This document shows positions 10,481 to 42,046 of a stretch of DNA of 55,148 nt, one piece after another; within the stretch, counting starts at the first letter, position 1, and each line of letters opens with the position of its first letter. The notes under the pieces were generated by a model. The model was not told the origin of the DNA, did no database searches, and saw only the letters and a list, made by a program, of their open reading frames with translations. The DNA is from Clostridiales bacterium (GTDB taxonomy: Bacteria > Bacillota > Clostridia > Christensenellales > Pumilibacteraceae), in NCBI GenBank assembly GCA_029066805.1, contig JAIEFT010000028.1:1-55148 (forward strand), given 5' to 3'. The position numbers and the translations under genes were made by a program.

Positions 10481-10509
10481 TTGATTATGCGTGCCTCACA
10501 TGATATAAT
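10481..10509 (+). promoter_or_regulatory. Promoter of rarA, predicted to give a leaderless mRNA
   Basis: TTGATT (10481-10486), a 17-bp spacer and TATAAT (10504-10509) with extended TG. The A of the rarA ATG is 7 nt after the last base of the -10, the usual position of transcription start, and there is no Shine-Dalgarno sequence. Confidence 0.78.
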
Positions 10510-10515
10510 AATCAT

Positions 10516-11814
10516 ATGGATTTATTTGATTTATCGGACAACAAAATAAAGTCCGCGCCGCTCGCAGAGCGTATGCGTCCGCAAACGCTCGGTGAATTTA
10601 TCGGGCAGAAGCATTTGTTGCATAACGGTTCGCTTCTTCGTCGTGCGATACAAGCGGACAGACTGGGTAGTTGCATATTTTTCGGCCCGCCGGGTACGGG
10701 AAAGACTACGCTTGCCGGTATAATTGCCGCAAGTACCAAGAGTGAGTTTGTCAAGCTTAACGCCGTGTCGTCGGGCGTAAGTGATGCAAAACGTGTAATA
10801 GAGGAAGCAACGGAACGGCTGCGCGTTTACGGTAAACGCACATATCTTTTGTTAGACGAATGTCACCGATGGAACAAGGCGCAGTCCGACTGTGTGCTAT
10901 CGGCTATCGAGACGGGCAGTATAATATTTATCGGCTCTACTACGGAAAATCCGTTTGTATCTATGACGCGAGCTATTGTGTCGCGTTGTCGCATATTTCA
11001 GCTTAAGCCGCTAACAGACGACGAAATTATTGACGGACTAAAACGCGCAGTTACCGCACCTAACGGGCTGAAAAGTTTTAGTCTCGATATAAAAGACGAA
11101 GCTTACCGCCATTTTGCTTGGGTCGCAAACGGGGATCTGCGCAATGCATACAACGCGCTCGAGCTTGCTGTTATGACCACGCCGCCGTCCGATAACGGTA
11201 CGATTGTTATTGATAAGGATGTGGCGCAGGAGAGTACACAGCAGCGAGTGCTTTCAATTGACGACAGTATGTATTACGATATGCTGTCGGCATTTTGCAA
11301 GTCGCTTCGCGGTTGCGATCCCGATGCGGCGCTGTATTGGGCGTTTAGGTTGATTGAGGCGGGCTGCGATCCGCTTTTGTTGTTCCGTCGAATGATGGCG
11401 CACGCGAGCGAGGATATAGGTATGGCGGACTCATCGGCGCTCAGTGTTGTTGTTTCGGCACTTACGGCATACGAGCATATAGGCGTGCCCGAAGGGTATT
11501 TGTCGCTCGCTCATGCGATAATAAAGGTGACAACCGCGCCCAAATCAAACGCTGTGTATCTTGCAAAGGCGGCGGCGCAAAAGGCAGTAAAAGAGCATGC
11601 CGACGATGTCGTTCCCGATTATCTTAAAAACAACAAGCTACCCAATGACAGCGACGCCGAATACATATATCCGCATGATACTCCCGCATATATAACGCAG
11701 CAGTATCTGCCAAAGAGCTTGCAGGGCGAAAAGTTCTATCGTCCGCAGGACAATCCCAACGAGCAAAAAATCAAGCTGTTTTTAGATGCGATAGGGCGAA
11801 ACAAACGCAATTAG
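10516..11814 (+). CDS. rarA: Replication-associated recombination protein A, AAA+ ATPase RarA/MgsA
   Basis: This 432-residue AAA+ ATPase is related to clamp loaders and acts at stalled replication forks. It has Walker A GPPGTGKTTLA (about residues 56-66), a Walker B region LLLDECHRWNKAQSD (about 113-127), sensor 1 (IGSTTENP) and the MgsA-type C-terminal helical and tetramerisation region. In most homologues the Walker B context reads DEIHRFNK; here it is DECHRWNK, a mild variation. The ATG is positioned at the predicted transcription start with no ribosome binding site, so the mRNA is probably leaderless. Confidence 0.95.
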   Translation: MDLFDLSDNKIKSAPLAERMRPQTLGEFIGQKHLLHNGSLLRRAIQADRLGSCIFFGPPGTGKTTLAGIIAASTKSEFVKLNAVSSGVSDAKRVIEEATERLRVYGKRTYLLLDECHRWNKAQSDCVLSAIETGSIIFIGSTTENPFVSMTRAIVSRCRIFQLKPLTDDEIIDGLKRAVTAPNGLKSFSLDIKDEAYRHFAWVANGDLRNAYNALELAVMTTPPSDNGTIVIDKDVAQESTQQRVLSIDDSMYYDMLSAFCKSLRGCDPDAALYWAFRLIEAGCDPLLLFRRMMAHASEDIGMADSSALSVVVSALTAYEHIGVPEGYLSLAHAIIKVTTAPKSNAVYLAKAAAQKAVKEHADDVVPDYLKNNKLPNDSDAEYIYPHDTPAYITQQYLPKSLQGEKFYRPQDNPNEQKIKLFLDAIGRNKRN

Positions 11815-11865
11815 GTAAATCTGCAAAATTTGCAAGTATATTGTAAAAACTGCATGAAAACTGCA

Positions 11866-11894
11866 TTGTAAACAAGTTTTTTCCATGCTACAAT
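11866..11894 (+). promoter_or_regulatory. Promoter of the ABC-2 exporter operon
   Basis: TTGTAA (11866-11871), 17-bp spacer, TACAAT (11889-11894) with an extended TG. The transcription start would be about 11901, 80 nt before the GTG start. Confidence 0.65.
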
Positions 11895-11982
11895 TAATAC
11901 AGTCAATTCGCTGTTTATGGGGAATACATTTTCACATTCATGTGCGATAATAATAGAACTGTGTTGCAAGGAGGAGTTAAAA

Positions 11983-12753
11983 GTGCAAGACACAATAAAC
12001 ATCACGCAAGAAAAGGCTGTTTTGGATATCAGCCACGTATCGATGTCGTATGCCAACGGCAAAGTCAAAGCGGTTGACGATCTTTCGTTCACACTTAAGT
12101 CAGGCGAGATATTCGGATTTTTAGGTGCGAACGGCGCGGGCAAAACCACCACTATCAAGATGGCTACGGGTATACTACCCGTTAAATCAGGAAGCATCAA
12201 GATTTGTGGACGCGACATTACGCACGATTCTTTAGAAGCAAAACGACATTTCGGGTTTGTTCCGGATTCGCCGATAATTTTCGATAAGTATACAGGCAGG
12301 GAATACATAGATTTTTTGGGCGATATATACGGCGTGAACAAGACTGCGCGCGAGACAATCACACAAGATTTGTTAAAAAGGTTCTCGCTTGAAGACGCTT
12401 TTGACAAGCGCATAAGCGCATATTCCCACGGTATGAAGCAAAAAATAGCCATTATCGGCTCGTTGATTCACAGTCCCGAGTTGTGGATATTGGACGAGCC
12501 TATGATGGGGCTTGACCCTCCGTCGGCATTCGCTCTGAAAGAGCTTATGCGACAGTATAAAGCTGAGGGCAAGACCGTGTTCTTTTCCACACACGTGCTG
12601 GACGTTGCCGAAAAGATTTGCGATCGTGTCGCTATAATAGGCAAAGGCAAGCTCGTTTTGTGCGGCGATATGGACGAAATCAAGCGTGCGCAAGGCGACG
12701 AGAGCTTGGAAGAGATTTTCCTTTCTGTGGCGGGCGAGAACAACAATGAATAA
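11983..12753 (+). CDS. ABC transporter ATP-binding protein
   Basis: This 256-residue ATPase powers the membrane protein encoded next. It has Walker A GANGAGKTT (about residues 48-56), a signature-like YSHGMKQKIAI segment, Walker B LWILDEPMMGLDP and the switch histidine in FFSTHVLD. The GTG at 11983 is chosen because AAGGAGGAG lies 7 nt upstream; a longer in-frame start at 11917 has no such site. The last codons overlap the permease start by 8 nt. The substrate is unknown; ABC-2 systems of this kind export drugs, peptides or lipids. Confidence 0.9.
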   Translation: MQDTINITQEKAVLDISHVSMSYANGKVKAVDDLSFTLKSGEIFGFLGANGAGKTTTIKMATGILPVKSGSIKICGRDITHDSLEAKRHFGFVPDSPIIFDKYTGREYIDFLGDIYGVNKTARETITQDLLKRFSLEDAFDKRISAYSHGMKQKIAIIGSLIHSPELWILDEPMMGLDPPSAFALKELMRQYKAEGKTVFFSTHVLDVAEKICDRVAIIGKGKLVLCGDMDEIKRAQGDESLEEIFLSVAGENNNE

Positions 12754-14401
12754 TTATTTAACGATTGTAAAAGCTTTGTTCAAGAACAAGCTTAGATTTG
12801 ACGATAGTAAGAAAAAGAGCAAAAAGATCGCATTTTTGCTGTTGATCGGCATAATGTACGCTATCGTTATGGCAATGTTTATATCCATAATAGTGTCGTT
12901 GAGCGATTTATTTTTGTACGTTCCATTTATGGCGCAAATGTTTTACTTTTTTGTGCTGATGACCGCGGCGATTATAGTGTTATTCTTTGGCATAGTACAT
13001 TTGGTAGCTGTGCTGTATCTATCCAAAGACACTGATTTTTATTCGATGTTGCCGGTAAAGCCCGCCACTGTTTTTACGGCTAAGCTGACTTATGTATACC
13101 TATCCGAAACGGCGATTGTTGCGGCTATTGCGCTACCTTTGTTGATAGCATTCGGTATAGTCGCAAAGATGTGGGTATGGTTTTATGTGATTTCAATTGC
13201 AACGCTACTTATTGTTCCCGTGCTTCCTCTTGTGGTTGCGGCAATTGTGGCCGTGCCTGTAATGTTGATTGCAAGCAGACTGAAAAACCGCAACGTAATT
13301 TCGCTTATATTCTATTTGGTGCTGTTCGGCGGAGTGTTTGCTCTGTACATATATTTTATTTATACGTCTTCTTCGGGAGCGGTTACGCCCGAGGAAATGT
13401 CCGAGATGCTAAACGCGTTGCAAGCTGTACTCAACGTGCTGTATCCGTACCAAGTGCTTTCTGCCGCGGCATGCGGATTGCCGATGTACGGACTGAATTT
13501 GGGCGCGTCAACCGTTGTAGGGATTGTGATATTCCTTGCGATTTCCGCAGCTCTGCTTGCGATTATATGGATTTTGGCAAAATTCATGTACGCGCGATCT
13601 GTCAAAGCCAATAATCAGACCGACAGCTCTAAGGCGAAAAAGGGCGAGTTTAGAACTACTTCCGGCACTCGCGCACTTATTAAGCGTGAATATATCAGCT
13701 CGCTTCGTACCACACAGATAGCTTTTCAGTGTTATGCCGTAATGTTGCTTCCTGTTATTATGGCGGTAATATTCGGTTTTATGTCGAGAAACGCCTATAG
13801 TGTTGACGCCGGAATGGATGCGTCGTTTTATACCGGATTTTTCAGACTGATAACGTACTGTGTAATGTGTGCCGTGTTTGCTACTCTCGGCAACGGCGCG
13901 AGCACAACATTCTCACGTGAGGGCGAAGCAATGGCGTCGCTGAAGGTTTTGCCTGTCAACATAAAAACAATATTCAAAGCTAAGGCCGTGGCGTGGCTGT
14001 TCCTGGCCGTACCTATTGCAATCGTTACTGTTTTGGTGTTCAGTCTGATGAACTTTGCTTGGCAGGACATGTTGCTTGCTCTGTTCTCGTTAGTGCCTAT
14101 GGTGATCGCTTTTGTCATTTTCGGCGCGCTGTGGGATTTATCTTCGCCTAAGCTGAAATGGACAGATCCCATGCAAGCGGTAAAGCACAATATGCACGTA
14201 CTCGGCGGACAGATATTGGCTATGGCTAGCGGACTTGTAATAATCATAATAATGTTGGTGCTTGTATCATGCGGTGTAGAATTATCTGTGATCTATGCTG
14301 TGTGCTGGTCGCTGTTGTACGCCGTGCTTGCCGTGTTTGCCGTTGTGGACGTGGTCATGTATCGCAACATAAGCAAGCTTTACAACCGAATTGAAATGTA
14401 A
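12746..14401 (+). CDS. ABC-2 type transporter permease
   Basis: The 551-residue protein has about 12 hydrophobic segments in two halves (roughly residues 28-245 and 330-545), separated by a hydrophilic stretch of lysines and short polar residues. This looks like two fused ABC-2 permease halves. The ATG overlaps the end of the ATPase gene by 8 nt, so the two proteins are probably made together. An ORF in this frame extends further upstream inside the ATPase gene, but the start beginning MNNYLTIVKALF is the plausible one. Substrate unknown. Confidence 0.82.
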   Translation: MNNYLTIVKALFKNKLRFDDSKKKSKKIAFLLLIGIMYAIVMAMFISIIVSLSDLFLYVPFMAQMFYFFVLMTAAIIVLFFGIVHLVAVLYLSKDTDFYSMLPVKPATVFTAKLTYVYLSETAIVAAIALPLLIAFGIVAKMWVWFYVISIATLLIVPVLPLVVAAIVAVPVMLIASRLKNRNVISLIFYLVLFGGVFALYIYFIYTSSSGAVTPEEMSEMLNALQAVLNVLYPYQVLSAAACGLPMYGLNLGASTVVGIVIFLAISAALLAIIWILAKFMYARSVKANNQTDSSKAKKGEFRTTSGTRALIKREYISSLRTTQIAFQCYAVMLLPVIMAVIFGFMSRNAYSVDAGMDASFYTGFFRLITYCVMCAVFATLGNGASTTFSREGEAMASLKVLPVNIKTIFKAKAVAWLFLAVPIAIVTVLVFSLMNFAWQDMLLALFSLVPMVIAFVIFGALWDLSSPKLKWTDPMQAVKHNMHVLGGQILAMASGLVIIIIMLVLVSCGVELSVIYAVCWSLLYAVLAVFAVVDVVMYRNISKLYNRIEM

Positions 14402-14433
14402 CGAAAAAACTTTGCACAAAAATTAAAAACGTA

Positions 14434-14462
14434 TTGCATGTGTTGTATGATTGTGATATACT
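14434..14462 (+). promoter_or_regulatory. Promoter of the dCMP deaminase gene
   Basis: TTGCAT (14434-14439), 17-bp spacer, TATACT (14457-14462) with extended TG. Confidence 0.7.
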
Positions 14463-14503
14463 AATTGAGCTGTTAAATTAATTCATACAAAAGGAATCAA
14501 ACA

Positions 14504-14968
14504 ATGGATAAATGGGATGCACGTTTTATGGAGATAGCTCATACCGTGGCAACTTGGTCGAGCTGCTATCAGGAAAATAGGCAAATAGGCGCGGTAATCG
14601 CTAAAAATAAGCGCATAATGACAACAGGCTATAACGGTGCGAGCGCGGGCATAAAAAGCTGTAAGGAAAAGGGCGAGTGTATCAGGCGCAAGCTGAACAT
14701 ACCATCCGGCACTAGGCATGAGCTGTGCTACGCCACGCACGCCGAACAGAACGCGATTATACAAGCGGCAAAGATGGGAATTTGTATTGACGGCGCTACG
14801 CTGTACTGCACTCATCAGCCGTGCGCTATCTGCACAAAAATGATTATAAACAGCGGTATAAAACGCGTTGTATATCAGTACGGTTATCCCGATGACTTCT
14901 CGTTGGAGCTTTTTGCCGAGGCGGGTGTAACAATTGAAAAGTTCGATCCTGAAGCTTCCGTTAAATAA
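14504..14968 (+). CDS. Deoxycytidylate deaminase (ComEB-type)
   Basis: The 154-residue zinc enzyme deaminates dCMP to dUMP, supplying thymidylate synthesis. The zinc and catalytic motifs are THAEQNAIIQAA (HAE, near residues 84-86) and HQPCAICTKMI (PCxxC, near 107-111). A further cysteine-rich loop (residues about 49-60) is typical of the dCMP-deaminase subgroup. AAAAGGAATC precedes the ATG. It is transcribed alone from its own promoter and ends at a strong palindrome. Confidence 0.92.
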   Translation: MDKWDARFMEIAHTVATWSSCYQENRQIGAVIAKNKRIMTTGYNGASAGIKSCKEKGECIRRKLNIPSGTRHELCYATHAEQNAIIQAAKMGICIDGATLYCTHQPCAICTKMIINSGIKRVVYQYGYPDDFSLELFAEAGVTIEKFDPEASVK

Positions 14969-14993
14969 GAATGTGATAGGTTAGTAATTGGAC

Positions 14994-15026
14994 AAGAGCT
15001 CCCGAACAACGTGTTCGGGAGCTCTT
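14994..15026. terminator. Long perfect hairpin between convergent genes
   Basis: A 15-bp perfect stem (AAGAGCTCCCGAACA / TGTTCGGGAGCTCTT) with a 3-nt ACG loop lies between the dCMP deaminase gene and the convergent ABC operon. There is no T run on either strand, so it may be a processing or blocking hairpin shared by both directions rather than a classical intrinsic terminator. Confidence 0.6.
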
Positions 15027-15063
15027 AGAGCGTTTAAGCTAAATTAAAATTGGTTTTAAGGAA

Positions 15064-15774
15064 TCACCGCTTGACTTTTAATTTTAATAGTAATGCGATA
15101 ACTCCGCAAAGAACGACAAATTCAGCAAGCAATACAGGAATGTGCCAAACTTGAAAACTTGTCATTGCCTTGAATGCTATTGTTGCGGGAAAGGCGTAAG
15201 CAATATATTGCATAAACTGTGGTAGCATATCTGCGGGGAACATAGTGCCCGACAGCATAACGGACGGCAAAAATACTATCATTGCTATCATTGTTAGTTT
15301 TGCTTGCTGCTTAAATAACAACCCTATAATACATCCGATAGCCAATGTTACCGCAAGTAATGCTATTAGCGGTAAAAAATACCATAATAATGCGGACGGT
15401 AATTCTGCTTTGAATACAAGTGGCGAAACGGCAAAAATAATCAAACAAACTATAATTGTGTGAATAAAGGAAGAAATAAACTGCGTAATTATTCCAAACC
15501 ATATCGGTACTCCGTTTGCCTTATATGCTTTTTTTATGTCTGTGCAGTAAATTTCGGCAAGCGCAGGCGGTAGTCCCATTAAAGCGCTCATTGTTATAGT
15601 AAATACCGTCATAGAAGATATAAGTGTTTTTGTAGCCGTTGTATCAATCGATGTAAATATTCCGCTCATAAAAAAGAAGAACACCAAAGGCACTAAATAG
15701 CAAGTAATAAGCATACTTTTACTGCGTATATCAAACTTGAATTGCAAACCAATTCCGTAAAGTAAACCTCTCAT
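15064..15774 (-). CDS. ABC-2 type transporter permease
   Basis: This 236-residue protein has six hydrophobic segments in the ABC-2 arrangement (roughly residues 21-40, 54-72, 90-117, 130-152, 160-180, 212-232). It is the membrane part of the exporter whose ATPase is encoded just upstream; the two genes overlap as TAATG. The operon is headed by a MerR-family regulator with a drug-sensing type C-terminus, which suggests export of a toxic compound. Substrate not identifiable from sequence. Confidence 0.85.
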   Translation of the reverse strand: MRGLLYGIGLQFKFDIRSKSMLITCYLVPLVFFFFMSGIFTSIDTTATKTLISSMTVFTITMSALMGLPPALAEIYCTDIKKAYKANGVPIWFGIITQFISSFIHTIIVCLIIFAVSPLVFKAELPSALLWYFLPLIALLAVTLAIGCIIGLLFKQQAKLTMIAMIVFLPSVMLSGTMFPADMLPQFMQYIAYAFPATIAFKAMTSFQVWHIPVLLAEFVVLCGVIALLLKLKVKR

Positions 15775-17376: not shown

Positions 17377-17394
17377 AATATTTTCCTCATCTAT

Positions 17395-17425
17395 ATTATA
17401 ATTCATTACGCGACGTAACGAGCAA
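17395..17425 (-). promoter_or_regulatory. MerR-type promoter with 19-bp spacer and operator dyad
   Basis: Read on the minus strand: TTGCTC (17425-17420), a 19-bp spacer, TATAAT (17400-17395). The spacer contains the dyad CGTTACG-TCG-CGTAATG (17420-17404). Over-long spacers with a central dyad are the hallmark of promoters activated by MerR proteins through DNA untwisting. Confidence 0.8.
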
Positions 17426-17563
17426 GCATTTTTATGTGTTTTCTAAAAAATAATTTCTATGACAAAGAGTACTACGGTAAATGCCCGTGCTTTTGCGTGA
17501 AACAGCAGGCTAGGACCTTTTGAGCGTTGCTGAAAAAAATATTTATAATATTCCTTAAAAGAC

Positions 17564-17592
17564 TTGACATGATTGATTCAGTGTTGTATACT
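17564..17592 (+). promoter_or_regulatory. Promoter of the ctsR operon
   Basis: Consensus TTGACA (17564-17569), 17-bp spacer, TATACT (17587-17592). Predicted transcription start near 17599, a few bases before the CtsR operator. The stretch from the merR-type promoter to here (about 17426-17563) shows no gene. Confidence 0.85.
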
Positions 17593-17603
17593 CTGTTTAA
17601 CAG

Positions 17604-17627
17604 TTTGACTATCTTTGACCTTTGACC
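17604..17627 (+). promoter_or_regulatory. CtsR operator with an extra third half-site
   Basis: On the minus strand the sequence at 17620-17604 is GGTCAAA-GAT-AGTCAAA, a full match to the CtsR heptad tandem repeat RGTCAAANANRGTCAAA. A third GGTCAAA (17627-17621) directly abuts it. The site lies just downstream of the predicted start of transcription, where bound CtsR would block transcription until heat shock. Confidence 0.9.
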
Positions 17628-26000: not shown

Positions 26001-26519
26001 TCAAAGACTTATAGTGTTTTCGTCGTCGCGGATTAAGTTAACGTTGAATATGAATAACCTGCGTGTGATAAAGTTGTATACAAATACTATAAGCTGAACT
26101 ATCAGCTTGACTACCCATATATTGCCACCCAGTAAGTCGTAACCGATCCAGCTGCCGAGCGACGTTAATCCCAAACCGATCGCGGAAAAGAATAGGAATT
26201 TTAAAAATCCGTATTTATTTTTGCCGACATTGCCGTATTTGAATACGAAAATCGAAGATAGCAAGTAATTAACAAGTATAGCCGAAATGTAGCCTATGAC
26301 GGTGGCTGTTATGTATACCGAAAATTGCGGGGAATACGGTGTGCCTCCGACAGTTGCGCCAGAAAACACACCCCAAAAACCATCGTAATGTTCGTGCCCG
26401 TACGCATACAAAAACACAGCGGTCAACAGAAAGTCAACCGCATTTGACGCTAAACCCACAGCGACGGATTTCAAAAATTCCAGCGTTGTTTGTTTTTTTA
26501 AAAAATCAATGATTTTCAT
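26001..26519 (-). CDS. GtrA family membrane protein
   Basis: The 172-residue protein has four hydrophobic segments (about residues 15-38, 68-92, 102-124, 131-153) with the spacing and charged ends of the GtrA/DPMS family, whose members are linked to translocation of lipid-linked sugars or to cell-surface glycosylation. It lies 15 bp downstream of the glycerophosphodiesterase gene on the same strand and probably shares its transcript. No strong ribosome binding site is visible before the ATG. Confidence 0.75.
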   Translation of the reverse strand: MKIIDFLKKQTTLEFLKSVAVGLASNAVDFLLTAVFLYAYGHEHYDGFWGVFSGATVGGTPYSPQFSVYITATVIGYISAILVNYLLSSIFVFKYGNVGKNKYGFLKFLFFSAIGLGLTSLGSWIGYDLLGGNIWVVKLIVQLIVFVYNFITRRLFIFNVNLIRDDENTISL

Positions 26520-26534: not shown

Positions 26535-27287
26535 CTAATTGGTAGATTCGCTGTTTTTGTCGCGGGGGATAAACCCTTCAAATATATAATTGTCGCAGAA
26601 CTTGAGCGCCTTTTGTGCTTCCAGTTCGCTACGTACAGTCCAAGCAACAACAGGCAGCCCTGCGGCAGTCACGTACTTGTTAGGTAGATTCGTCACTTTA
26701 TACGCGATAAATCCGGGGTGCGAGATGTCGTTATACTTAAGCTTTTTAAGCCGCTTTTTTTCCCGTCTGGGCACGTCGATATCGTTGTGGTGGAAGTATG
26801 ACGAAAGCTGTCCGCGAGTGATGTGCGGCGCATTCTTGTAGAAGTAGTGCATAGATTGCGGGTCAAACGACTCTACGGCATAATCGCCGTTATACGACTT
26901 GAGCATTTCTATGATTTTTTCTTCTAATGCAAAAGACTGTTCGGCTTTTTTTATTTCTATCAAAAGGGGAACTTTGCCGTTTACCGTCTCTAACACTTGT
27001 TCCAGAGTGGGAATGGTGCAGTCTGTCTTGAGTAAGCGGATATCGCTAAGCTCCGCCGCCTTAAGCGTGGATACATAACCGTCACGGTTGGTCATTCTAC
27101 TCAATTTTTCATCGTGAAAAACAATCACGGTTTGGTCGTCTATAATACGAACGTCCAATTCTATGGCAAAACCGTGCTTTACGGAATTTTCAAAAGCAGG
27201 GAGTGAGTTTTCGGGAATATTATCTGTATCGTGCAAGCCACGATGCGCTATGGGCTTATCAAGCACCCATGAAGTTTTAGTTTCCAT
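26535..27287 (-). CDS. Glycerophosphodiester phosphodiesterase
   Basis: The 250-residue enzyme hydrolyses glycerophosphodiesters, products of phospholipid turnover. It shows the GDPD signature: AHRGLHDTDNIPENSLPAF near the N-terminus with the catalytic His-Arg, ELDVRIIDDQTVIVFHD near residues 44-60 with metal-binding Glu/Asp and the second histidine, then EIKK and a C-terminal VVAWTV. No signal peptide is seen, so it acts in the cytoplasm. I take the ATG at 27287 rather than a TTG three codons earlier, because the TTG overlaps the predicted -10 box. There is no Shine-Dalgarno sequence; the leader would be 0-2 nt. Confidence 0.92.
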   Translation of the reverse strand: METKTSWVLDKPIAHRGLHDTDNIPENSLPAFENSVKHGFAIELDVRIIDDQTVIVFHDEKLSRMTNRDGYVSTLKAAELSDIRLLKTDCTIPTLEQVLETVNGKVPLLIEIKKAEQSFALEEKIIEMLKSYNGDYAVESFDPQSMHYFYKNAPHITRGQLSSYFHHNDIDVPRREKKRLKKLKYNDISHPGFIAYKVTNLPNKYVTAAGLPVVAWTVRSELEAQKALKFCDNYIFEGFIPRDKNSESTN

Positions 27288-27295
27288 ACTAATCA

Positions 27296-27324
27296 ATTAT
27301 ATCATCTTTGAATTTATTTTACAA
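27296..27324 (-). promoter_or_regulatory. Promoter of the glycerophosphodiesterase operon, nearly leaderless
   Basis: On the minus strand: TTGTAA (27324-27319), 17-bp spacer, TATAAT (27301-27296) with extended TG. The ATG at 27287 is 9 nt beyond the -10 box, so little or no leader is expected. Confidence 0.7.
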
Positions 27325-27393: not shown

Positions 27394-27422
27394 TTGCTGT
27401 TTTGCGTAGCTTATGATATACT
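27394..27422 (+). promoter_or_regulatory. Promoter of lepA-hemW, predicted to give a leaderless mRNA
   Basis: TTGCTG (27394-27399), 17-bp spacer, TATACT (27417-27422) with extended TG. The lepA ATG begins 7 nt after the last base of the -10 box. Confidence 0.75.
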
Positions 27423-27428
27423 TTAAGT

Positions 27429-29234
27429 ATGGACAGACAAAAATTTATTCGCAATTTTTGTATAATCGCTCACATCGATCATGGAAAATCGACGCTTGCG
27501 GATAGGCTTATGGAGGCGACGGCTACGCTTACAAAACGCGAACTTTCCGATCAAATGCTTGACAGTATGGATATCGAGCGTGAGCGCGGTATCACAATCA
27601 AGCTTACGCCCGTAAGAATGTTTTACGAGTATAACGGCGAACGCTACACGTTTAACCTTATCGATACGCCGGGGCATGTTGACTTTACGTATGAGGTGTC
27701 GCGCTCGCTTGCGGCTTGCGAGGGCGCGGTGCTCGTTGTGGACGCAGCGCAGGGCGTGGAAGCTCAAACGCTTGCCAACGTGTACCTTGCGCTAGACAAC
27801 AATCTCGAGATTGTGCCTGTCATAAACAAAATCGATTTGCCCGCCGCCCGTCCCGACGAGGTAAAAAAGGAGATAGAGGATATTATCGGTCTGCCCGCAG
27901 ACGAAGCGCCGTGCATTTCCGCTAAAGAGGGAATTAATATCGACGCAGTGCTCCGCGCCATAGCCGAGCAAGTCCCGCCGCCGCATGGGGATAACGGCAA
28001 ACCGCTTAAGGCGCTGATTTTCGATTCATATTACGATAACTACAAAGGCGCGGTTTGTCTTATCCGTGTTATCGACGGCTCGGCAAAGGCAGGCGACCGC
28101 ATTACCATGATGTCTAACGGCAAGGTGTACGATGTAACCGAAGTGGGAGTGTTTCAGCCCAAGCCCGTGCCGATTGAATGCTTGTCGGCAGGCGACGTCG
28201 GTTATTTGTGTGCGTCCATAAAATCAATTGCCGATACTGCGCCCGGGGACACTATTACTTATGCCAATAATCCCACGGCTGAGCCGTGCCCCGGCTACAA
28301 AAAAGTTAAGCCTGTCGTTTACAGCGGTATATATCCTGCCGACGGCTCAAAATACGAGGACCTAAAGGACGCTTTAGAGCGGCTAAAGCTCAACGACGCG
28401 TCGTTGTTTTATGAGCCGGAAACGTCATCTGCGCTCGGCTTCGGTTTTCGTTGCGGATTTTTGGGACTTCTGCATATGGAAATAATCGAGGAACGACTTG
28501 AGCGTGAGTTCGATCTTGATATAATAACAACTGCGCCGGGCGTTGTTTACAAGGTTTACACAAGTGGTGGTATGGTCGAAGTAACCAACCCGTCCAATCT
28601 TCCGCCCGCGGGTGAAATCGATTATATGGAAGAGCCCGTTGTAACTGCTTCGATATACACGCCGCCCGAGTACATCGGTCCTATTATGGAGCTTTGTCAA
28701 GACAAGCGCGGCGAGTACATCAACATGACTTATATAGAAAAAACGCGCGTGCTCATCACTTACACTATGCCGCTTAACGAGATTGTGTATGACTTTTTTG
28801 ACGGGCTTAAAAGTCGCTCGCGCGGGTATGCGAGTTTCGATTACGAGCAGGATGGCTATCGCAAGAGCGATTTGGTCAAGCTGGACATCATGCTCAACGG
28901 CGATATTTGCGACGCGCTCAGCATAATTGTACACCGTGATAAGGCGTACTCGCGCGGTCGAGCAATGGCGGAAAAGCTTAAGGACGTTATTCCGCGCAAG
29001 CTGTTTGAAATTCCCATTCAAGCGGCTATCGGTGGCAAAGTAATTGCACGCGAGACGATTAAGGCGTTACGCAAAGATGTTTTGGCTAAGTGCTACGGCG
29101 GCGACGTAACGCGCAAAAAGAAGCTTTTGGAAAAGCAGAAGGAAGGCAAAAAGCGCATGCGCCAGTTCGGTACTGTTGAAATCCCGTCAGAAGCGTTTAT
29201 GTCTGTTCTTAAACTCGATAACGATAAAAAATGA
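27429..29234 (+). CDS. lepA: Elongation factor 4 (LepA)
   Basis: The 601-residue GTPase acts on the ribosome, with proposed roles in back-translocation and initiation/assembly. G motifs are [14 protein letters not shown] (near residues 13-26), DTPGHVDF (near 79-86) and NKIDLP (near 133-138); EF-G-like domains and the LepA-specific C-terminal domain with PRQLFE-like [16 protein letters not shown] near 523-538 follow. No Shine-Dalgarno sequence is present and the ATG sits at the predicted transcription start. The stop overlaps the hemW start as ATGA. Confidence 0.97.
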
Positions 29235-30334
29235 CAATAAGCGGCAAAACACACGGCGTATATATTCACGTGCCGTTTTGCAAGGCTAAGTGCAAATACT
29301 GCGCGTTTATATCCACGCCCGATTTTTCGTTGCAAAAATCGTATGTAGCCGCATTGATTGAAGAAATTAAGACAAGTCCGCTAGTCGGCAGCGCTGTAGA
29401 TAGTATTTACATTGGCGGTGGAACTCCGTCGTGTCTGTATCGTGGAGGGATCGCCGAGATACTTGCAGCAGTAAAAAGCAGCTTTATTGTAGCGGATGAC
29501 GCAGAAATCACATCGGAATGTAATCCGGAAAGCGTAGATGAAGCGTTTGTCGACGAATGTAAAAATTCCGGCGTAAACAGAATCAGCATGGGTTTGCAAT
29601 CGTGCGGCAACGATGTTTTGCGCGCATGCGGCAGAATTCACACTTTCGAACAGTACGAGGATGCAATTGCGATTTTATCCGAGCGATTTGACAACATATC
29701 ATCGGACATTATTTTGGGTTTGCCGATGCAAAAGCTGAGCGATATAGATGAGTCAATAAAAAGCATGACCTGCGTAAAACATATTTCCATGTACGCGCTG
29801 GCTGTTGAGCACGGCACGCCGCTGTATACAGATGGATACAGTGTAGATGACGATATGATCGCCGATTGGTACGAATATGCGTGCGCAAAACTTTCGGATA
29901 TTGGTTTTTACCGTTACGAAGTCAGCAATTTTGCCAAAAGCGGTTACGAGAGTAAACACAACAAAAAATACTGGAGTTGTATGCCGTATATAGGATTCGG
30001 TGTGGCGGCACACGGATATGACGGCGAGCGTACACGTTTTTTGCACGGGGATGATATTATCGAATATATCAGCTCGCCTAAAGCGGAAAGCTACACGCTT
30101 ACCGACAAAGATATGTACAACGAGTATATAATGCTGCGGTTGCGCACCGAAAATGGAATTGTGCTGAGCGATTTTACGGGTCGATTCGGATATGACTTTT
30201 ACGAGCGCAACAAAGATATTATAGACAAGCTAAAGCGCGAAAAACTGATTGTTTGCCGCGACGGCGCTATCGCGATTGCGCCGGAAAGAATGTTTGTGAT
30301 GAATACGATCATCGAGCAGTTGATGCTTGACTGA
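29231..30334 (+). CDS. hemW: Radical SAM heme chaperone HemW
   Basis: The 367-residue protein begins [18 protein letters not shown], with the radical SAM CxxxCxxC cysteines, then GGGTPS (near 60-65) and ECNPES. These place it in the HemN/HemW group; the CxxxCxxCAF form and the length favour HemW, which inserts heme into proteins, over true coproporphyrinogen dehydrogenase. The C-terminal HemN domain is present. Coupling to lepA by a 4-nt overlap is a common arrangement in Bacillota, where the next genes are usually hrcA-grpE-dnaK-dnaJ, as here apart from one insertion. Confidence 0.93.
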
Positions 30335-30355
30335 AGCTACGTATTTTGGTATAGT
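30327..30355 (+). promoter_or_regulatory. Promoter of the DUF3267 gene, predicted to give a leaderless mRNA
   Basis: TTGACT (30327-30332), overlapping the hemW stop, 17-bp spacer, TATAGT (30350-30355) with extended TG. The ATG at 30362 is 7 nt from the end of the -10 box. Confidence 0.75.
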
Positions 30356-30361
30356 GTGATT

Positions 30362-30943
30362 ATGAAAAACGTTTACGACTACAAAGCGATAAATAGATTG
30401 GATCTGTCCGATCCCAAGTTCAAAATGCTGAATAAACTCAATATATTTGCATTTATCACAATATTAGTCAGTTGTGTTGTTGGCATTTCTCTCAACTACT
30501 TTTTACGTATGGCAGGGCAACCCGGTGGAATGTACTTTATTTACATTCTCATAGGCGTTGTGTTGTGTTTGATATATCCATATTTTCACGAATTTGCGCA
30601 CGCATTTGCTATAGTTATTTCCCGCGGAAAAAAGCCTTGCATCAAGTTCGGGAAGTTTGCGGCGTACTGCGGTTCGCCGGATATTATATTCACAAAGGCT
30701 CAATACTTCTTTGCTGCGTCGTTTCCGTTCGTTTTTTTCTGTGCCGTGCTTATTCCGTTGTGTGTATATCTGCCTGCGGAGTATTTTGTGCTGCCGTTTA
30801 TGCCGCTTATGTACAACGTATTCGGAAGCGTTGCCGACTATTTTATGATATATGTGGTTCTTTCCAGCCCCAAACGCGGCATAGTGGTGGATTGCGGGAC
30901 GGATATTGTTATTTATGTACCTGGTAACTGCGAAGCAAATTGA
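30362..30943 (+). CDS. DUF3267-type putative membrane zinc metalloprotease
   Basis: The 193-residue protein has four hydrophobic segments (roughly residues 23-44, 57-75, 118-138 and 142-165). An HEFAH motif (HExxH, near residue 80) sits at the end of the second one, as in DUF3267 and other integral membrane zincins. A KPCIKFGKFAAYC segment follows. The family is poorly characterised; intramembrane proteolysis is an inference from the motif. The start is the ATG at 30362; an upstream GTG in frame lies at the edge of the -10 box. It separates hemW from the hrcA operon and has its own promoter. Confidence 0.72.
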   Translation: MKNVYDYKAINRLDLSDPKFKMLNKLNIFAFITILVSCVVGISLNYFLRMAGQPGGMYFIYILIGVVLCLIYPYFHEFAHAFAIVISRGKKPCIKFGKFAAYCGSPDIIFTKAQYFFAASFPFVFFCAVLIPLCVYLPAEYFVLPFMPLMYNVFGSVADYFMIYVVLSSPKRGIVVDCGTDIVIYVPGNCEAN

Positions 30944-35878: not shown

Positions 35879-35894
35879 ATTATATCACGCAATG

Positions 35895-35913
35895 CCGCCG
35901 AACTTTTCGGCGG
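35895..35913 (+). terminator. Short GC-rich hairpin between dnaJ and ackA
   Basis: CCGCCGAA-CTT-TTCGGCGG followed by TTGTTTG. Probably a moderate terminator of the heat-shock operon. Confidence 0.7.
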
Positions 35914-35934
35914 TTGTTTGCGTTTGGAGGTACT

Positions 35935-37128: not shown

Positions 37129-37129
37129 A

Positions 37130-37873
37130 TTGAAACTTTCTGTCAAAAACGAAATAATTCGTATGCTCTTTCCGGACGACATCAAGTGTATTGTTTGCGG
37201 GAAAGAGATACATCCCAACCGTTACGGACTATGTGACGATTGCAAGCTTGCTATTAACGATAATTTCTGCTTGCGGTGCGGCAGGCACAAAATAGGAATA
37301 GGCGATTACTGTGATGAATGTAGTAGTCTGAGTATGCACTTTGACGAGGCGCGATCGGCCGTCAGCTACGACGGCAACGCAAAAGATTTGGTGCGCAGAC
37401 TAAAATACGGCAATGCCAGATATTTAGCTAACACGTTGAGTCAATATTTGCTCGACGTGTTATTGCTTGCCGATTGGCAAGCGGACTGCTTGACGTATGT
37501 TCCTATTCACATGTCGCGGCAAAAAATGCGTGGCTACAATCAAGCCGAATTATTGGCGCGTGAGCTTTCCGAACGCACCGATCTGCCTTGCTTGCGCTTG
37601 CTTGAAAAGTCGTACAAAACAAAAAATCAAGCAAAGCTGAACAGGGAAGAACGGCTTGAAAACTTAAAGGGCTCGTTTGCTGCCGTCGGCACTCCGCCCG
37701 AACACGTCATAATTGTCGACGACGTTATGACAACAGGCTCTACTGCGGATGAGTGCAGCAGAGTACTCAAAAAGGCGGGTGCAAAAGTTGTGTACATACT
37801 CACGTTCGCATCTGTGCCCGAACGTCCCGTTTTGGATGCTCCCGTGCAAAATATAACGGATTTTCGCAGATAA
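37130..37873 (+). CDS. ComF family phosphoribosyltransferase-like protein
   Basis: The 247-residue protein starts with a cysteine-rich zinc-binding region (CIVC, CDDC, CLRC, CDEC within residues 18-63) and ends with a type I phosphoribosyltransferase fold carrying the PRPP motif VIIVDDVMTTGSTADEC near residues 200-216. ComF takes part in DNA uptake in naturally competent bacteria, although many non-competent species carry it. The start is uncertain: TTG at 37130, 1 nt after the ackA stop, has no clear Shine-Dalgarno; an ATG 11 codons later is possible. Confidence 0.85.
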   Translation: MKLSVKNEIIRMLFPDDIKCIVCGKEIHPNRYGLCDDCKLAINDNFCLRCGRHKIGIGDYCDECSSLSMHFDEARSAVSYDGNAKDLVRRLKYGNARYLANTLSQYLLDVLLLADWQADCLTYVPIHMSRQKMRGYNQAELLARELSERTDLPCLRLLEKSYKTKNQAKLNREERLENLKGSFAAVGTPPEHVIIVDDVMTTGSTADECSRVLKKAGAKVVYILTFASVPERPVLDAPVQNITDFRR

Positions 37874-37878
37874 ATAAC

Positions 37879-37907
37879 TTGACTATTGCTGCTTTTAATG
37901 TTAAAAT
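37879..37907 (+). promoter_or_regulatory. Promoter of rny
   Basis: TTGACT (37879-37884), 17-bp spacer, TAAAAT (37902-37907) with extended TG. Transcription should start at about 37914. Confidence 0.78.
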
Positions 37908-37912
37908 ATAGT

Positions 37913-37964
37913 CGGTACAGTATGTGTACCGCAATAGATTGTTCGCCGAGAGTTTATATTCGGC
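37913..37964 (+). promoter_or_regulatory. Structured 5' leader of rny with a terminal stem-loop
   Basis: A perfect 7-bp stem CGGTACA-GTATG-TGTACCG (37913-37931) would be the first thing in the transcript. A second hairpin, GCCGA with TCGGC (37945-37964), follows. The leader of about 100 nt ends in AAAAGGAG before the ATG. Confidence 0.55.
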
Positions 37965-38015
37965 ATAATCATAAAAAACAATTCACATACAAAAATATCA
38001 AAAGGAGAATGTAGT

Positions 38016-39599
38016 ATGACCCTACTTTGTGCAAGTACGGCGTTTGTTTTAGCTATTGTTTTGCCGATTGTAGCGGTGATTGTCGGCGCATTTGTCGGTT
38101 TATTTGTTGATCGTGCTTACCAAAACAAAAAGCGCAGCGACGCCAAACAAGCGGCAAATAAGATGCTGGAAGACGCTGTAAACGAAGTAAAAGAAATGCG
38201 CAAAACCGCAACGCGCGAAGCAAGAGAAGAACTGGCAAAAGAACGTAGCGCACAGGAAAAAGAGTTGCGCGAAAAGCAAGCGGGTATATCCCGTTCCGAG
38301 CAAAGAATAATTCAGCGCGAGGAAACGTTAGACAAAAAAGAGCAGTTGCTCGATAAAAAATCCGATGACCTCGACGCGCAAAAGGCGACGTTAGCGCAAA
38401 AACATGCTGAAGCGGACAAGCTCAAAGCCGAGCTTGCGGCAGCCAACAGTAAGATTTTGGAAGAAATTCAGCGTGTTGCCGGCATGTCTAAGGACGAGGC
38501 TAAGTCGCAGTTGATTGACGCAATTCGCGACGAAGCCAAGCACGACGCAGCCAAAATGGTACGCGACATCGACGCAGAAGCCAAGGAAGAAGCGGACAAG
38601 CGCGCACAAAAGATTGTTGCGCTCGCCGTACAGCGTTGTGCAGTCGATCACAGCTCGGAAATCACCGTGTCTACAGTAGCGTTGCCCAACGACGAAATGA
38701 AGGGCAGGATTATCGGCAGAGAGGGTCGCAATATTCGCGCGCTCGAAACTGCCACCGGCTGCGACCTTATTATCGACGATACGCCCGAAGCCGTTGTGCT
38801 TTCGTGTTTTGACCCAATTCGCCGCGAAGTTGCGCGTATTGCGTTGGAAAAGCTTATCAGTGACGGGCGCATTCACCCCGGCAGAATTGAGGACTTGGTA
38901 GAAAAAGCGCAAAAGGAAGTCGATGTTAAAATCAAGGAAGCTGGCGAGAACGCGATGTACGAGACAGGCGTGTTCGGACTCAATCCCGAGCTTGCAAAAA
39001 TACTCGGCAGGCTGCGCTTCCGCACCAGTTACGGTCAAAACGTTCTTCGCCATTCCATAGAGGCGTCACACCTTGCGGGTATTATGGCGGCAGAGCTTGG
39101 CGCAAACGTTCCGCTGTGCAAGCGCGCGGGACTGCTTCACGACATAGGTAAAGCGCTCGACCATGAGCTTGAAGGCACTCACGTATCTATTGGTGTGGAC
39201 GTTGCCAAAAAGTATAAGGAGAGCAAGGAAGTTATCCACTGTATTGCGGCGCACCACAACGACGTTGATCCGGAAACGATCGAGGCGGTAATAGTGCAGT
39301 GTGCGGACGCAATATCGGGCGCACGCCCCGGCGCACGCAGAGAATCGCTTGACAACTACGTAAAACGCCTTGAAAAGCTCGAGGAAATCGCCAACGGCTT
39401 CGAGGGCGTAGAAAAGTCATTCGCCGTTCAGGCGGGGCGTGAGATACGTATAATCGTCAAGCCCGAAGTCGTGGACGACGTTCAAGCCATGTATATGTCT
39501 AAGGAAATCGCAAAGCAAATCGAACAAGATATGCAATATCCCGGACAGATAAAGGTAAACGTGATCCGCGAGACCCGCGCTGTCGAGTATGCAAAATAA
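38016..39599 (+). CDS. rny: Ribonuclease Y
   Basis: RNase Y is the membrane-bound endonuclease that starts mRNA decay in many Bacillota. The 527-residue protein has an N-terminal membrane segment (about residues 7-30), a long charged coiled coil (about 35-200), a KH RNA-binding domain with [13 protein letters not shown] (near 231-243), and an HD domain with [11 protein letters not shown] and [12 protein letters not shown] (near 346-385) containing the catalytic His-Asp pair. It is transcribed alone, with its own promoter and terminator. Confidence 0.97.
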
Positions 39600-39605
39600 C
39601 AGATA

Positions 39606-39642
39606 ATTGCCGTAAGCAACAACCTGCTTGCGGTAATTTTTT
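39606..39642 (+). terminator. Intrinsic terminator of rny
   Basis: ATTGCCGTAAGCA pairs with TGCTTGCGGTAAT (13 positions with two G-T pairs), followed by six T. Confidence 0.85.
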
Positions 39643-39683
39643 ATAAGCTGAATTTCATTCATCAAATACAGATAATTATCTAC

Positions 39684-39714
39684 AAATACGGACAAAATTG
39701 TCCGTATTTTTTTT
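39684..39714 (+). terminator. Second intrinsic terminator, just before spoIIAA
   Basis: AAATACGGACAA-AA-TTGTCCGTATTT is a perfect 12-bp stem, followed by a T run. It lies only 27 bp before the spoIIAA start and insulates the sporulation operon from rny. Confidence 0.88.
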
Positions 39715-39740
39715 GCTACCATAAATAAGGAGTTTGCAGT

Positions 39741-40049
39741 ATGAAAATCGAGCATTACAAAAAATTTGACTCACTGTACGTCAAGTTGTGCGGGGAATTG
39801 GACGAGCATCACAGCGCGTATGTTCGCACAACTATAGACGAGCTAACGGACGGAAATGCAGTCAAAAGGCTGTATATAGACATGTCAAACCTTGACTTTA
39901 TGGATTCGACGGGCATAGGTGTGCTTATTGGCAGATACAAGCGGCTAAAGCCGCGTGGTATTCCCATATTCATTCAGTCGCCGCCGCCCGCGGTAGACAA
40001 GGTGCTTAGACTATCCGGAATTTACGAAATCATGACAAAGGCAGGTTGA
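39741..40049 (+). CDS. spoIIAA: Anti-sigma F factor antagonist SpoIIAA
   Basis: The 102-residue STAS-domain protein releases sigma F by binding SpoIIAB when dephosphorylated. The regulatory serine lies in FMDSTGIGVLIGRYK near residues 54-68. AAGGAG sits 8 nt before the ATG. It starts the spoIIA operon and is followed within 3 bp by spoIIAB. I find no convincing sigma-A or sigma-H promoter in the short gap after the upstream terminator. Confidence 0.93.
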   Translation: MKIEHYKKFDSLYVKLCGELDEHHSAYVRTTIDELTDGNAVKRLYIDMSNLDFMDSTGIGVLIGRYKRLKPRGIPIFIQSPPPAVDKVLRLSGIYEIMTKAG

Positions 40050-40052
40050 TTT

Positions 40053-40502
40053 ATGGAAAACCAAATGACTGTGATTTTTGACGCTATTACGGAAAACGAG
40101 GCGTTTGCGCGCAACACGGTTGCGGCGTTTTGCGTTGCGCTCGATCCGACGGTCGATCAAATTAACGATATTAAAACCGCCGTATCGGAAGCGGTAACAA
40201 ACTGCATTGTACACGCCTACACAGACAAGTCGCAACCTGGTAAAATAACAATAACTACAACTATTTCGGAAAACTCCGTACATATCGTCATATCGGACAC
40301 AGGTGTCGGCATAGAGGACGTGGATAGCGCCATGCAGCCGTTCTTTACCACCAAACCCGAACAGGAGCGCAGCGGCATGGGCTTTACCGTAATGGAGTCG
40401 TTCACGGACAGTCTTACGGTAGAAAAGAATGAGCCTGTCGGCACCGTCGTGTCCATGACAAAGACGATTAGGGGTGCGGATTGGAAAAAGAAGAAACACT
40501 AA
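40053..40502 (+). CDS. spoIIAB: Anti-sigma F factor SpoIIAB
   Basis: The 149-residue protein kinase of the GHKL family holds sigma F inactive and phosphorylates SpoIIAA. The N box VSEAVTNCIVHAY (near residues 44-56), G1 box SDTGVGIED (near 80-88) and G2 box ERSGMGFTVMESF (near 106-118) are intact. Its 3' end overlaps the sigF start by 22 nt, implying coupled translation, as usual for this operon. Confidence 0.95.
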   Translation: MENQMTVIFDAITENEAFARNTVAAFCVALDPTVDQINDIKTAVSEAVTNCIVHAYTDKSQPGKITITTTISENSVHIVISDTGVGIEDVDSAMQPFFTTKPEQERSGMGFTVMESFTDSLTVEKNEPVGTVVSMTKTIRGADWKKKKH

Positions 40503-41194
40503 ACTTAATAGCCGCCGCGCAAAACGGCGATAGTTTGGCGTGCGAGCAGTTGCTATCGAGTAACTCGCCGCTTATAAAGTCGGTAATTCGTCGTTACAAA
40601 AACAAGGGCGTAGAGTACGACGATTTATACCAACTTGGTTGCGTGGGGTTTATCAAGGCGGTTAAGAACTTTTCGTTCGAGTACGAAGTGAGATTTTCCA
40701 CCTATGCCGTGCCGATGATAGCAGGCGAGGTCAAAAGGTTTTTACGCGACGACGGTCCGGTCAAGGTTTCGCGCGGGACAAAGACTGCGGCTATCAAGAT
40801 AGCGCGCTATGTAGAACTGTACAAAAAGGAACACGGCGAGTCGCCGACTATCGATATGATAGCTAATGAGTTCGATATAGAAGCTTCTGAAGCGGTGTTC
40901 ATTATGGATTCGTGTAAGTTTCCGATTTCTATATACGACAGCAACGACGACAGCGGGCGCACGATTATGGACAAGCTACAATCCTCCGAGAACGAGGAGG
41001 AAAAGCTCGACAAAATGATGTTAAAGCAGATTATAAACGAGCTTTCTCCGCGCGACAAAAAAATTATTCTTTTACGTTATTTTGCCGACAAAACGCAGTC
41101 GGAGGTTGCGCGTGCGCTGTCAGTATCGCAAGTTCAAATTTCGCGATTGGAAAGCAAGATACTCAGCAGAATACGCTCAAGATACGGAGAGTAA
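40481..41194 (+). CDS. sigF: RNA polymerase sigma-F factor (SpoIIAC)
   Basis: This 237-residue sporulation sigma factor directs early forespore transcription. Region 2 (YDDLYQLGCVGFIKAVKNF, FSTYAVPMIAGEVKRFLRD), region 3, and region 4 (ELSPRDKKIILLRYF, SQVQISRLESKIL) are complete. The start is TTG with AGGGGTGCGG upstream, inside spoIIAB. Sigma F rather than sigma G is assigned from its position after spoIIAA-spoIIAB. Confidence 0.94.
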   Translation: MEKEETLNLIAAAQNGDSLACEQLLSSNSPLIKSVIRRYKNKGVEYDDLYQLGCVGFIKAVKNFSFEYEVRFSTYAVPMIAGEVKRFLRDDGPVKVSRGTKTAAIKIARYVELYKKEHGESPTIDMIANEFDIEASEAVFIMDSCKFPISIYDSNDDSGRTIMDKLQSSENEEEKLDKMMLKQIINELSPRDKKIILLRYFADKTQSEVARALSVSQVQISRLESKILSRIRSRYGE

Positions 41195-41207
41195 ATTACT
41201 TTTGATA

Positions 41208-41236
41208 TTGACTTGATATGCTATGTTTGATATAAT
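41208..41236 (+). promoter_or_regulatory. Promoter of the AraC-type regulator, predicted to give a leaderless mRNA
   Basis: TTGACT (41208-41213), 17-bp spacer, TATAAT (41231-41236) with extended TG. The ATG at 41243 begins 7 nt after the -10 box and there is no Shine-Dalgarno sequence. Confidence 0.8.
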
Positions 41237-41242
41237 ATCAAT

Positions 41243-42046
41243 ATGGCATTTTCATTGGATAAAATATTTACTACGCGTACGGCACTGCCTAGCAACGGTG
41301 GGATAACCGAGATAGAACCTATAGCGGCGTTAAAGCCGTATATACGGTGTTTTTGGACTTACAAGCGTGGTACTTGCGCTATGAAGACGCGAATAATCCC
41401 CGATTGCTGTGCAGATATAATAATAAATCTTGACGATGAAAGTGCCGGATTTGTCGGTATGTGCTTTGACAGTTTTTTCGCCGAAAACGTAAGTACTGTA
41501 TTCGGTATACGGTTTTATGCATGGTCTGTGCCTCGTTTTGCGCGTACAAATGCTGTCCGATCGTACGGTTTTGATTCTAATCCTCAAAATCTTTTCTATA
41601 AATTTACGGATTTTAAAGATAGTATAATAGAGGCAAAAAATACTGCGCAGCGCGTGGAGTTATCGCAAAAGTATTTTCTCGAACTTCTGGATGAGAGTTG
41701 CGACAGCGATGTTATGAATTGTTTATACACGGCTATAAAATGCAACGGAAGTATATCGATACATGAATTATCGCGCAGTATGGCGGTAAGCAGGCGCACT
41801 TTGGAGCGCAAATTTATGCAAAATATAGGCGTTTCGCCCAAATCGATAATCGAGCTTATTAGATATCAATTGTTGTGGCAGGACTGTATATCGAGTAATT
41901 TTTGCGCGCATGACTTGGTAGATAAATTCGGATATTACGATCAAGCGCATATGTACAACGACTTTAAAAAGTATCACGGTATAGGGCTTGGCGATGCGTG
42001 GCAAGAATATTTCAAATTGTCGCATTTTTACAATACAACATTTTAA
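41243..42046 (+). CDS. AraC family transcriptional regulator
   Basis: The 267-residue protein has an N-terminal sensor region with an ALKPYIRCFWTY motif and IIPDCCADIIINL, as in the DUF6597 group of AraC regulators, and a C-terminal double helix-turn-helix (SIHELSRSMAVSRRTLERKF, then AHDLVDKFGYYDQAHMYNDF, each near residues 175-245). Target genes are unknown. The following two small genes on the same strand could be among them. The start codon coincides with the predicted transcription start. Confidence 0.87.
   Translation: MAFSLDKIFTTRTALPSNGGITEIEPIAALKPYIRCFWTYKRGTCAMKTRIIPDCCADIIINLDDESAGFVGMCFDSFFAENVSTVFGIRFYAWSVPRFARTNAVRSYGFDSNPQNLFYKFTDFKDSIIEAKNTAQRVELSQKYFLELLDESCDSDVMNCLYTAIKCNGSISIHELSRSMAVSRRTLERKFMQNIGVSPKSIIELIRYQLLWQDCISSNFCAHDLVDKFGYYDQAHMYNDFKKYHGIGLGDAWQEYFKLSHFYNTTF

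Follow-up and report, generated by a model that had tools for sequence, protein, structure and literature searches.

Predicted leaderless genes with a fixed promoter-to-start spacing in a family of Clostridia

Results

Promoter-start units at the locus

The stretch of DNA analyzed here (the window; 55,148 nucleotides, contig JAIEFT010000028.1 of GenBank assembly GCA_029066805.1, from a Clostridiales bacterium belonging to an uncultured, gut-type group with kinship to Christensenella) contains four genes, rarA, lepA, a DUF3267 gene and an AraC-type regulator gene, each with a promoter so close to the start codon that its transcript is predicted to be leaderless, that is, to begin at the start codon itself (Table 1). 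A preliminary description of the window had named these genes and reported that each is preceded by a TTGnnn hexamer and, 17 bp downstream, an extended -10 box, with the A of the ATG 7 nt after the box and no Shine-Dalgarno (SD) sequence. The coordinates of all four sites were confirmed, Pfam agrees with the gene names, and no SD motif of at least four bases is present at the ATG of any of the four genes (0/4). In terms of the gap, defined as the number of nucleotides between the end of the -10 box and the start codon, all four units have a gap of 6 nt, which places the A on the seventh base after the box. The -35 hexamer of the DUF3267 unit falls within the 3′ end of the preceding open reading frame, and an in-frame GTG lies upstream of the ATG of this gene, at position 30356.

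Table 1. Promoters and predicted leaderless genes in the window.
Feature	Position	Strand	Details
rarA promoter-start unit	10481..10518	+	-35 TTGATT 10481-10486; TGaTATAAT, box 10504-10509; ATG 10516-10518; score 13.8; kept in orthologs
rarA (MgsA/RarA AAA+ ATPase), predicted leaderless	10516..11814	+	Pfam MgsA_C 1.1e-53
lepA promoter-start unit	27394..27431	+	-35 TTGCTG 27394-27399; TGaTATACT, box 27417-27422; ATG 27429-27431
lepA (EF4), predicted leaderless	27429..29234	+	Pfam LepA_C 1e-50; start aligned across 30 family loci
DUF3267 promoter-start unit	30327..30364	+	-35 TTGACT 30327-30332; TGgTATAGT, box 30350-30355; ATG 30362-30364
DUF3267 putative zincin peptidase gene, predicted leaderless	30362..30943	+	Pfam DUF3267 3.5e-13
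AraC-type promoter-start unit	41208..41245	+	-35 TTGACT 41208-41213; TGaTATAAT, box 41231-41236; ATG 41243-41245
AraC-type regulator gene (DUF6597 + HTH_18), predicted leaderless	41243..42046	+	Pfam
GDPD gene promoter, divergent from lepA	27285..27324	-	TTGTAA 27324-27319; spacer 17 bp; extended -10 TATAAT 27301-27296; gap 8; ATG 27287

Excess of the 6-nt gap in the source genome

The source genome (1.93 Mb in 61 contigs, 94% complete) was sampled as 40 stretches plus the window, a total of 768,270 bases or 40% of the genome, in which a simple hexamer-based caller written for this analysis gave 629 genes. Regions upstream of candidate starts were scanned with a generic sigma-A promoter score (threshold at least 8), with Markov-resampled upstream regions as decoys; pattern searches were set against a backward control. 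A promoter stands at gap 6 before a candidate ATG in 22 of the 629 genes, compared to 1.1 genes in resampled upstream regions. The neighboring gaps 5, 7 and 8 account for one, five and two genes, respectively, and gaps 12–60 for a mean of 3.8 genes per gap, with a maximum of 13. At score thresholds of 6, 10 and 12 the gap-6 ATG count is 23, 20 and 14. GTG starts also show a gap-6 peak (6 genes, mean 0.9), and TTG starts show none (0 genes, mean 1.8). The sample contains 14 gap-6 ATG sites with an extended box. Four of them lie in the window, which makes up 7% of the sampled length, and it was because its sites stand out in this way that the window drew notice.

Counted with penalties, the gap 6–8 layout is found in 34 of the 629 genes (5.4%), hereafter the candidates, and in 25 of 323 genes that look like the first gene of an operon (7.7%), while decoys yield a mean of 1.5 (range 0–4 in 20 runs; 627 genes). 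Twenty shifted triples of gaps gave between 2 and 28 genes, the 28 belonging to gaps 30–32, which are flanked by triples of 18 and 14. This second peak, at gaps of approximately 27–35, is the expected promoter position of ordinary leadered genes, and the source genome thus has two favored promoter positions, one at the start codon and one about 30 nt upstream. The gap-6 peak consists of -10-like boxes clustered in position with their first T about 12 bp from the start, and such genes are more numerous than in shuffled upstream regions, both of which are marks of TA-led genes. In the whole source genome, the pattern TTG-N20-TAWANT-N6-ATG occurs 53 times, compared to twice in the backward control. 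A further control, 8064 internal in-frame ATG or GTG codons, gave 6 matches at gap 6 and 19 at gap 7, with a mean of 6.2 per gap; the 19 gap-7 matches are spread over 19 different genes, and this surplus looks like a codon-phase effect. At gap 0, the -10 box of a strong promoter abuts a candidate GTG in four genes; these could be repeats or wrong start candidates.

Translation starts and Shine-Dalgarno use

The gap-6 ATGs coincide with gene starts. In the sample, 21 of the 22 gap-6 ATG sites are candidate starts of called genes, compared to 886 of all 19,865 ATGs on both strands (4.5%). Triplets other than ATG are found in the same place at low counts (ATA 6, ATC 4, AAG 3, TTG 0, CTG 0). The N-termini of LepA and RarA align with those of relatives at the starts given in Table 1.

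An SD match of at least four bases at any in-frame start within 60 nt was found for 7 of the 34 candidates and for 474 of the 595 other genes (472 under an earlier, slightly different rule), indicating that SD use prevails in the sampled part of the genome and that the candidates depart from it. When the chosen start alone is considered, 2 of the 34 candidates carry an SD. The matches of the seven SD-bearing candidates are SD-like, four or five bases long and near some in-frame start, and for the remaining 27 no SD-led alternative start exists within 60 nt in frame. Most candidates therefore show the lack of SD that is a further mark of TA-led genes, and, being mostly SD-less, they do not fall into the class of genes that are SD-led and have their promoter some 30 nt upstream.

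A Pfam scan covered 30 of the 34 candidates, of which five had no match at 1e-5. The matched genes include those for RarA, DnaX, an AddB-like nuclease, an AlkZ-related protein and, at 27.3 bits against a cut-off of 27, a DNA polymerase III delta-like protein. Further candidates encode LepA, TilS, D-Tyr-tRNA deacylase and a class I tRNA-synthetase-like protein of 308 aa, and others an ECF sigma factor, NAD kinase, GcpE and ribulose-phosphate epimerase. According to passages of the survey by Zheng and co-workers, leaderless genes are commoner in information storage and processing categories and fewer in translation (PMC3160421).

Conservation gene by gene

In relatives, promoters were scored at gaps 4–10 before the start homologous to that of the window gene. 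Among 30 rarA loci with identity down to 61%, the gap is 6 in 16, 7 in two and 8 in seven, so that 25 of 30 lie at 6–8. Among 30 lepA loci with identity down to 76%, it is 6 in 14 and 7 in three (17 of 30 at 6–7). The DUF3267 gene was matched in 22 of 38 loci, seven of them from genomes already counted, which leaves 15 distinct genomes; here the gap is 6 in nine and 7 in one (10 of 15 at 6–7), although two of the gap-6 matches, with identities of just 41% and 45%, could be paralogs. The AraC-type gene was matched in two of eight loci, both at gap 6. Many of these loci differ in spacer and gap sequence but retain the hexamers and the length of the gap. Orthologs with a gap of 8–10 have a predicted leader of about 2–4 nt. 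These sequence comparisons indicate that the predicted leaderless layout is inherited gene by gene across the family.

Among the 11 loci without a scoring lepA promoter, L132 is cut at a contig end, yet a gap-6 box is visible, and L134 scores slightly below the threshold, at gap 7. Of the two rarA loci without a promoter by the scoring rule, one has it at gap 11 and the other has an SD-like AAGG with a promoter at gap 58.

Distribution in the family, order and phylum

The pattern TTG-N20-TATAAT-N6-ATG occurs in all 74 genomes of the family examined (74/74), with 5–37 matches each and 1652 in total, compared to 16 in the control. The same spacing ending in GTG gave 300 matches (control 16) and ending in TTG gave 75 (control 28). 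The source genome contains 32 matches to this strict pattern, the highest count in a sample of 398 genomes from the phylum, 299 of which have at least one match; the next genome, of the same class (G337), has 18, followed by one with 9.

A sample of 248 genomes from the order, 231 of them outside the family, includes families with high median counts (f146, 19; f155, 18; f157, 13; f165, 11) and others with low ones (f144, 3; f172, 3; f164, 2). Family medians span 0–19, although some families are represented by one genome, and the spread may mean repeated gain or loss. No 16S rRNA match was found in the source-genome assembly, which is 94% complete; judged by LepA (76% identity), the nearest named relative in the scanned collection is Candidatus Ornithoclostridium excrementipullorum, placed by NCBI in the Clostridia, order Christensenellales.

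The pattern was also searched in the genomes behind 17 of 80 LepA loci. Candidatus Ornithoclostridium has 24 matches, an uncultured Christensenellaceae 20, and seven uncultured Clostridia or Clostridiales 9–30, with controls of 0 throughout. The other genomes gave, with the control in parentheses, 8 (1) in Anaerotignum, 7 (3) in Clostridium sp., 5 (1) in Drancourtella, 4 (1) in Fusibacillus, 4 (3) in Neobacillus, 3 (1) in Acetobacterium, 3 (1) in Listeria and 0 (0) in Aedoeadaptatus. Inspection by eye of the lepA upstream regions of 24 of the 80 loci revealed TATAAT 6–7 nt before the ATG in three (L003, L007 and L012). The best reading of these counts is that the layout is a trait of the family and of several other families of the order, and that it is scarce, as judged by the pattern, in the phylum sample.

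Transcription-start signature

Bacterial RNA polymerase usually initiates at a purine (+1) that follows a pyrimidine. Three congeneric genomes (G398, G399 and G401) together contain 71 of the 1652 gap-6 ATG matches, all of which were taken. The base preceding the ATG is C or T at 67 of these 71 sites, which include orthologs and so are not all independent, while the other five gap positions are C or T in 39–62%. The base preceding GTG is C or T in 24 of 30 sites (of the 300 GTG matches), and in the sample of the source genome itself a pyrimidine precedes the start in 25 of 27 gap-6 candidates. Among 37 of the 211 matches with a 12-nt gap, in which no codon constrains the sequence, the base at the seventh position past the box is a purine in 31 and that at the sixth a pyrimidine in 62%. 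The pyrimidine before the ATG is an indirect sign, from sequence, that the 5′ end of the transcript would lie at the start codon.

Discussion

Probable leaderless genes beside an SD majority

The candidates are very likely to be true leaderless genes standing beside an SD-led majority. In the mechanism that we propose, a housekeeping sigma-A-type promoter would make the first base of the start codon, the seventh after the -10 box, the +1 position, and the mRNA would begin with AUG and presumably be bound in living cells by a 70S ribosome with initiator tRNA, without SD pairing. A precedent for 70S initiation on leaderless mRNA is known, as passages of one report note, from work in E. coli (PMC6431027). 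About 5% of all genes and about 8% of operon-first-looking genes would be built in this way in the sampled genome, most others using SD leaders, and the layout is frequent in several related families of the order. The preliminary description had raised a genome-wide excess of the exact spacing and its conservation in relatives as ways to check the proposal, and had held that leaderless and SD-led genes sit side by side. The excess (22 against 1.1, and 53 against 2), the conservation of the gap in relatives, the lack of an SD-led alternative start for most candidates and the SD majority among the other genes bear this out.

Several results weigh against this interpretation. For nine of the 34 candidates, the next gene upstream on the same strand overlaps or is no more than 60 nt away, so that these are not operon-first, and read-through or an upstream promoter could yield leadered mRNAs of the same genes, as passages on C. 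phytofermentans describe (PMC5171806). The spacing is not kept everywhere. The rarA departures comprise the seven loci at gap 8 together with two at gap 9, one at gap 10 and two without a promoter; lepA has gap 9 in two loci and no scoring promoter at gaps 4–10 in 11; and among the 15 DUF3267 genomes one has gap 9 and four have none, two of the latter with strong promoters at gaps 11 and 42. Four of the 11 lepA loci without a scoring promoter, all from one genus of the family, g274 (L137, L139, L141 and L147), have an SD and a promoter further upstream in place of a start-adjacent one. Matches with a 12-nt gap also exceed their control in the family (211 compared to 27), a surplus that arises because promoters lie upstream of genes anyway. 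Of eight gap-6 GTG sites in the sample, only four coincide with the start of a called gene, which makes GTG use less sure than AUG use. Finally, the gene starts depend on the caller, and the pattern used for the phylum demands a TTG -35 and an exact TATAAT, which undercounts leaderless lineages that lack a -35.

As a separate observation, the g274 genes suggest that the initiation mode of lepA differs within the family.

The start-adjacent promoter could be real and yet a second promoter or read-through could supply a leadered mRNA that does most of the translation, leaving the leaderless form minor. The nine candidates close to an upstream gene are consistent with such an arrangement. The leadered form would usually lack an SD, however (27 of 34), unlike the situation in C. 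phytofermentans, and the -10-to-ATG gap of rarA is kept across genera, and we consider this explanation unlikely. It is barely conceivable that a mere preference of the lineage's RNA polymerase for YATG at +1 explains the layout and that the ATG does not serve as a start codon. Such a preference would account for the pyrimidine at 67 of 71 sites; a preference by itself is ruled out by the share of sites that are gene starts (21 of 22, compared to 4.5% of ATGs), and the LepA and RarA homologs begin at these ATGs and GTG shows a surplus too. There is similarly next to no likelihood that the called starts are wrong and that the genes begin downstream with ribosome-binding sites, an outcome that the preliminary description had named as one that would refute it. 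Seven of the 34 candidates do have a 4–5-base SD-like match, but the 27 others have none within 60 nt in frame, and for LepA and RarA the alignment of orthologs rules out wrong starts. Chance or AT-rich composition, suggested by the shortness of the motif and the AT-rich upstream regions, is ruled out by the decoys and backward controls (1.5 compared to 34 genes in resampled upstream regions, and 2 compared to 53 and 16 compared to 1652 in the pattern searches).

Comparison with known leaderless systems

Leaderless genes are already known, in the Bacillota included; what would be new here is the lineage, the sharpness of the spacing and the contrast between families of one order. The preliminary description had regarded Bacillota as strongly SD-dependent. 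That view leaves out known exceptions: according to passages of one survey, 56 of 209 Firmicutes genomes have predicted leaderless genes, chiefly in Lactobacillales and Mycoplasma, with a Firmicutes table entry of 4.2 (2.4, 16.6) that we take as percent of genes (PMC3160421), and mapped leaderless mRNAs are given as 8.6% in S. pyogenes and as 9% in both S. agalactiae and S. pneumoniae in the sections consulted of another (PMC6431027). According to the same sections, 54 S. pyogenes leaderless transcripts (81%) are likewise leaderless in S. agalactiae (PMC6431027).

As in Lactobacillales, Mycoplasma and Streptococcus, the genes described here have a TATAAT-like box with its first T about 12 bp before the start, form a minority beside SD genes and are inherited between species. 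A TG before the box is shared with several low-GC genomes in passages of the 2011 survey by Zheng (PMC3160421). In contrast to Lactobacillales and Mycoplasma, the present lineage belongs to the Clostridia (order Christensenellales in the NCBI placement of its nearest named kin), its counted sites have a TTG -35, and the layout is known here from sequence alone; for Lactococcus leaderless promoters, the absence of a -35 has been suggested (PMC3160421, in part).

Studied Clostridia are of the same class and likewise have mRNAs beginning with the start codon or close to it, as is predicted here. In the portions available, leaderless transcripts make up 2–3% in three solventogenic clostridia (PMC9045289) and number 212 in C. 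acetobutylicum, some changing under stress (PMC4533764); in C. phytofermentans they form 4% of one class of transcription start sites, and the genes generally keep a ribosome-binding site and another transcription start (PMC5171806). Here, by contrast, most candidates lack an SD, and the spacing is maintained family-wide. Actinobacteria and Deinococcus-Thermus also have a promoter-defined start at the codon, predicted for about 20% and about 40% of genes, respectively, in passages of the survey (PMC3160421), compared to about 5% here. We found no report of leaderless genes in this order in the open-access literature searched; in the part of PMC10039858 available, the term leaderless appears solely in the reference list.

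We put forward, tentatively and as something short of probable, that the family, together with several sister families, represents another Bacillota lineage in addition to Lactobacillales and Mycoplasma. Leaderless initiation in this lineage would be stable, gene-specific and inherited, and the genes concerned would include lepA and those for the clamp loader, repair and tRNA modification. AUG would be used far ahead of GUG, with UUG last, and ribosomes or initiation factors could be tuned to a 5′-terminal AUG, with most genes SD-dependent. Clostridia are usually treated as SD-led, and a family that inherits leaderless genes, in an order that also includes families with few of them, would offer a natural comparison for the gain and loss of this trait in an SD-using phylum. 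The annotation of gene starts in uncultured genomes would be affected. There may also be relevance to antibiotics, some of which, in passages of one report, inhibit leadered initiation and spare leaderless initiation (PMC9581028).

Other features of the window

No known RNA family or tRNA was found in the window. Called genes with neither an SD nor a start-adjacent promoter occur on the forward strand near positions 245, 6802, 11917, 12746, 29231, 31115, 37130, 43558 and 45038, and on the reverse strand at 26001-26519; some of these may be translationally coupled to the preceding gene. The GDPD gene divergent from lepA has a predicted leader of about 2 nt, and both members of this divergent pair look leaderless or nearly so.

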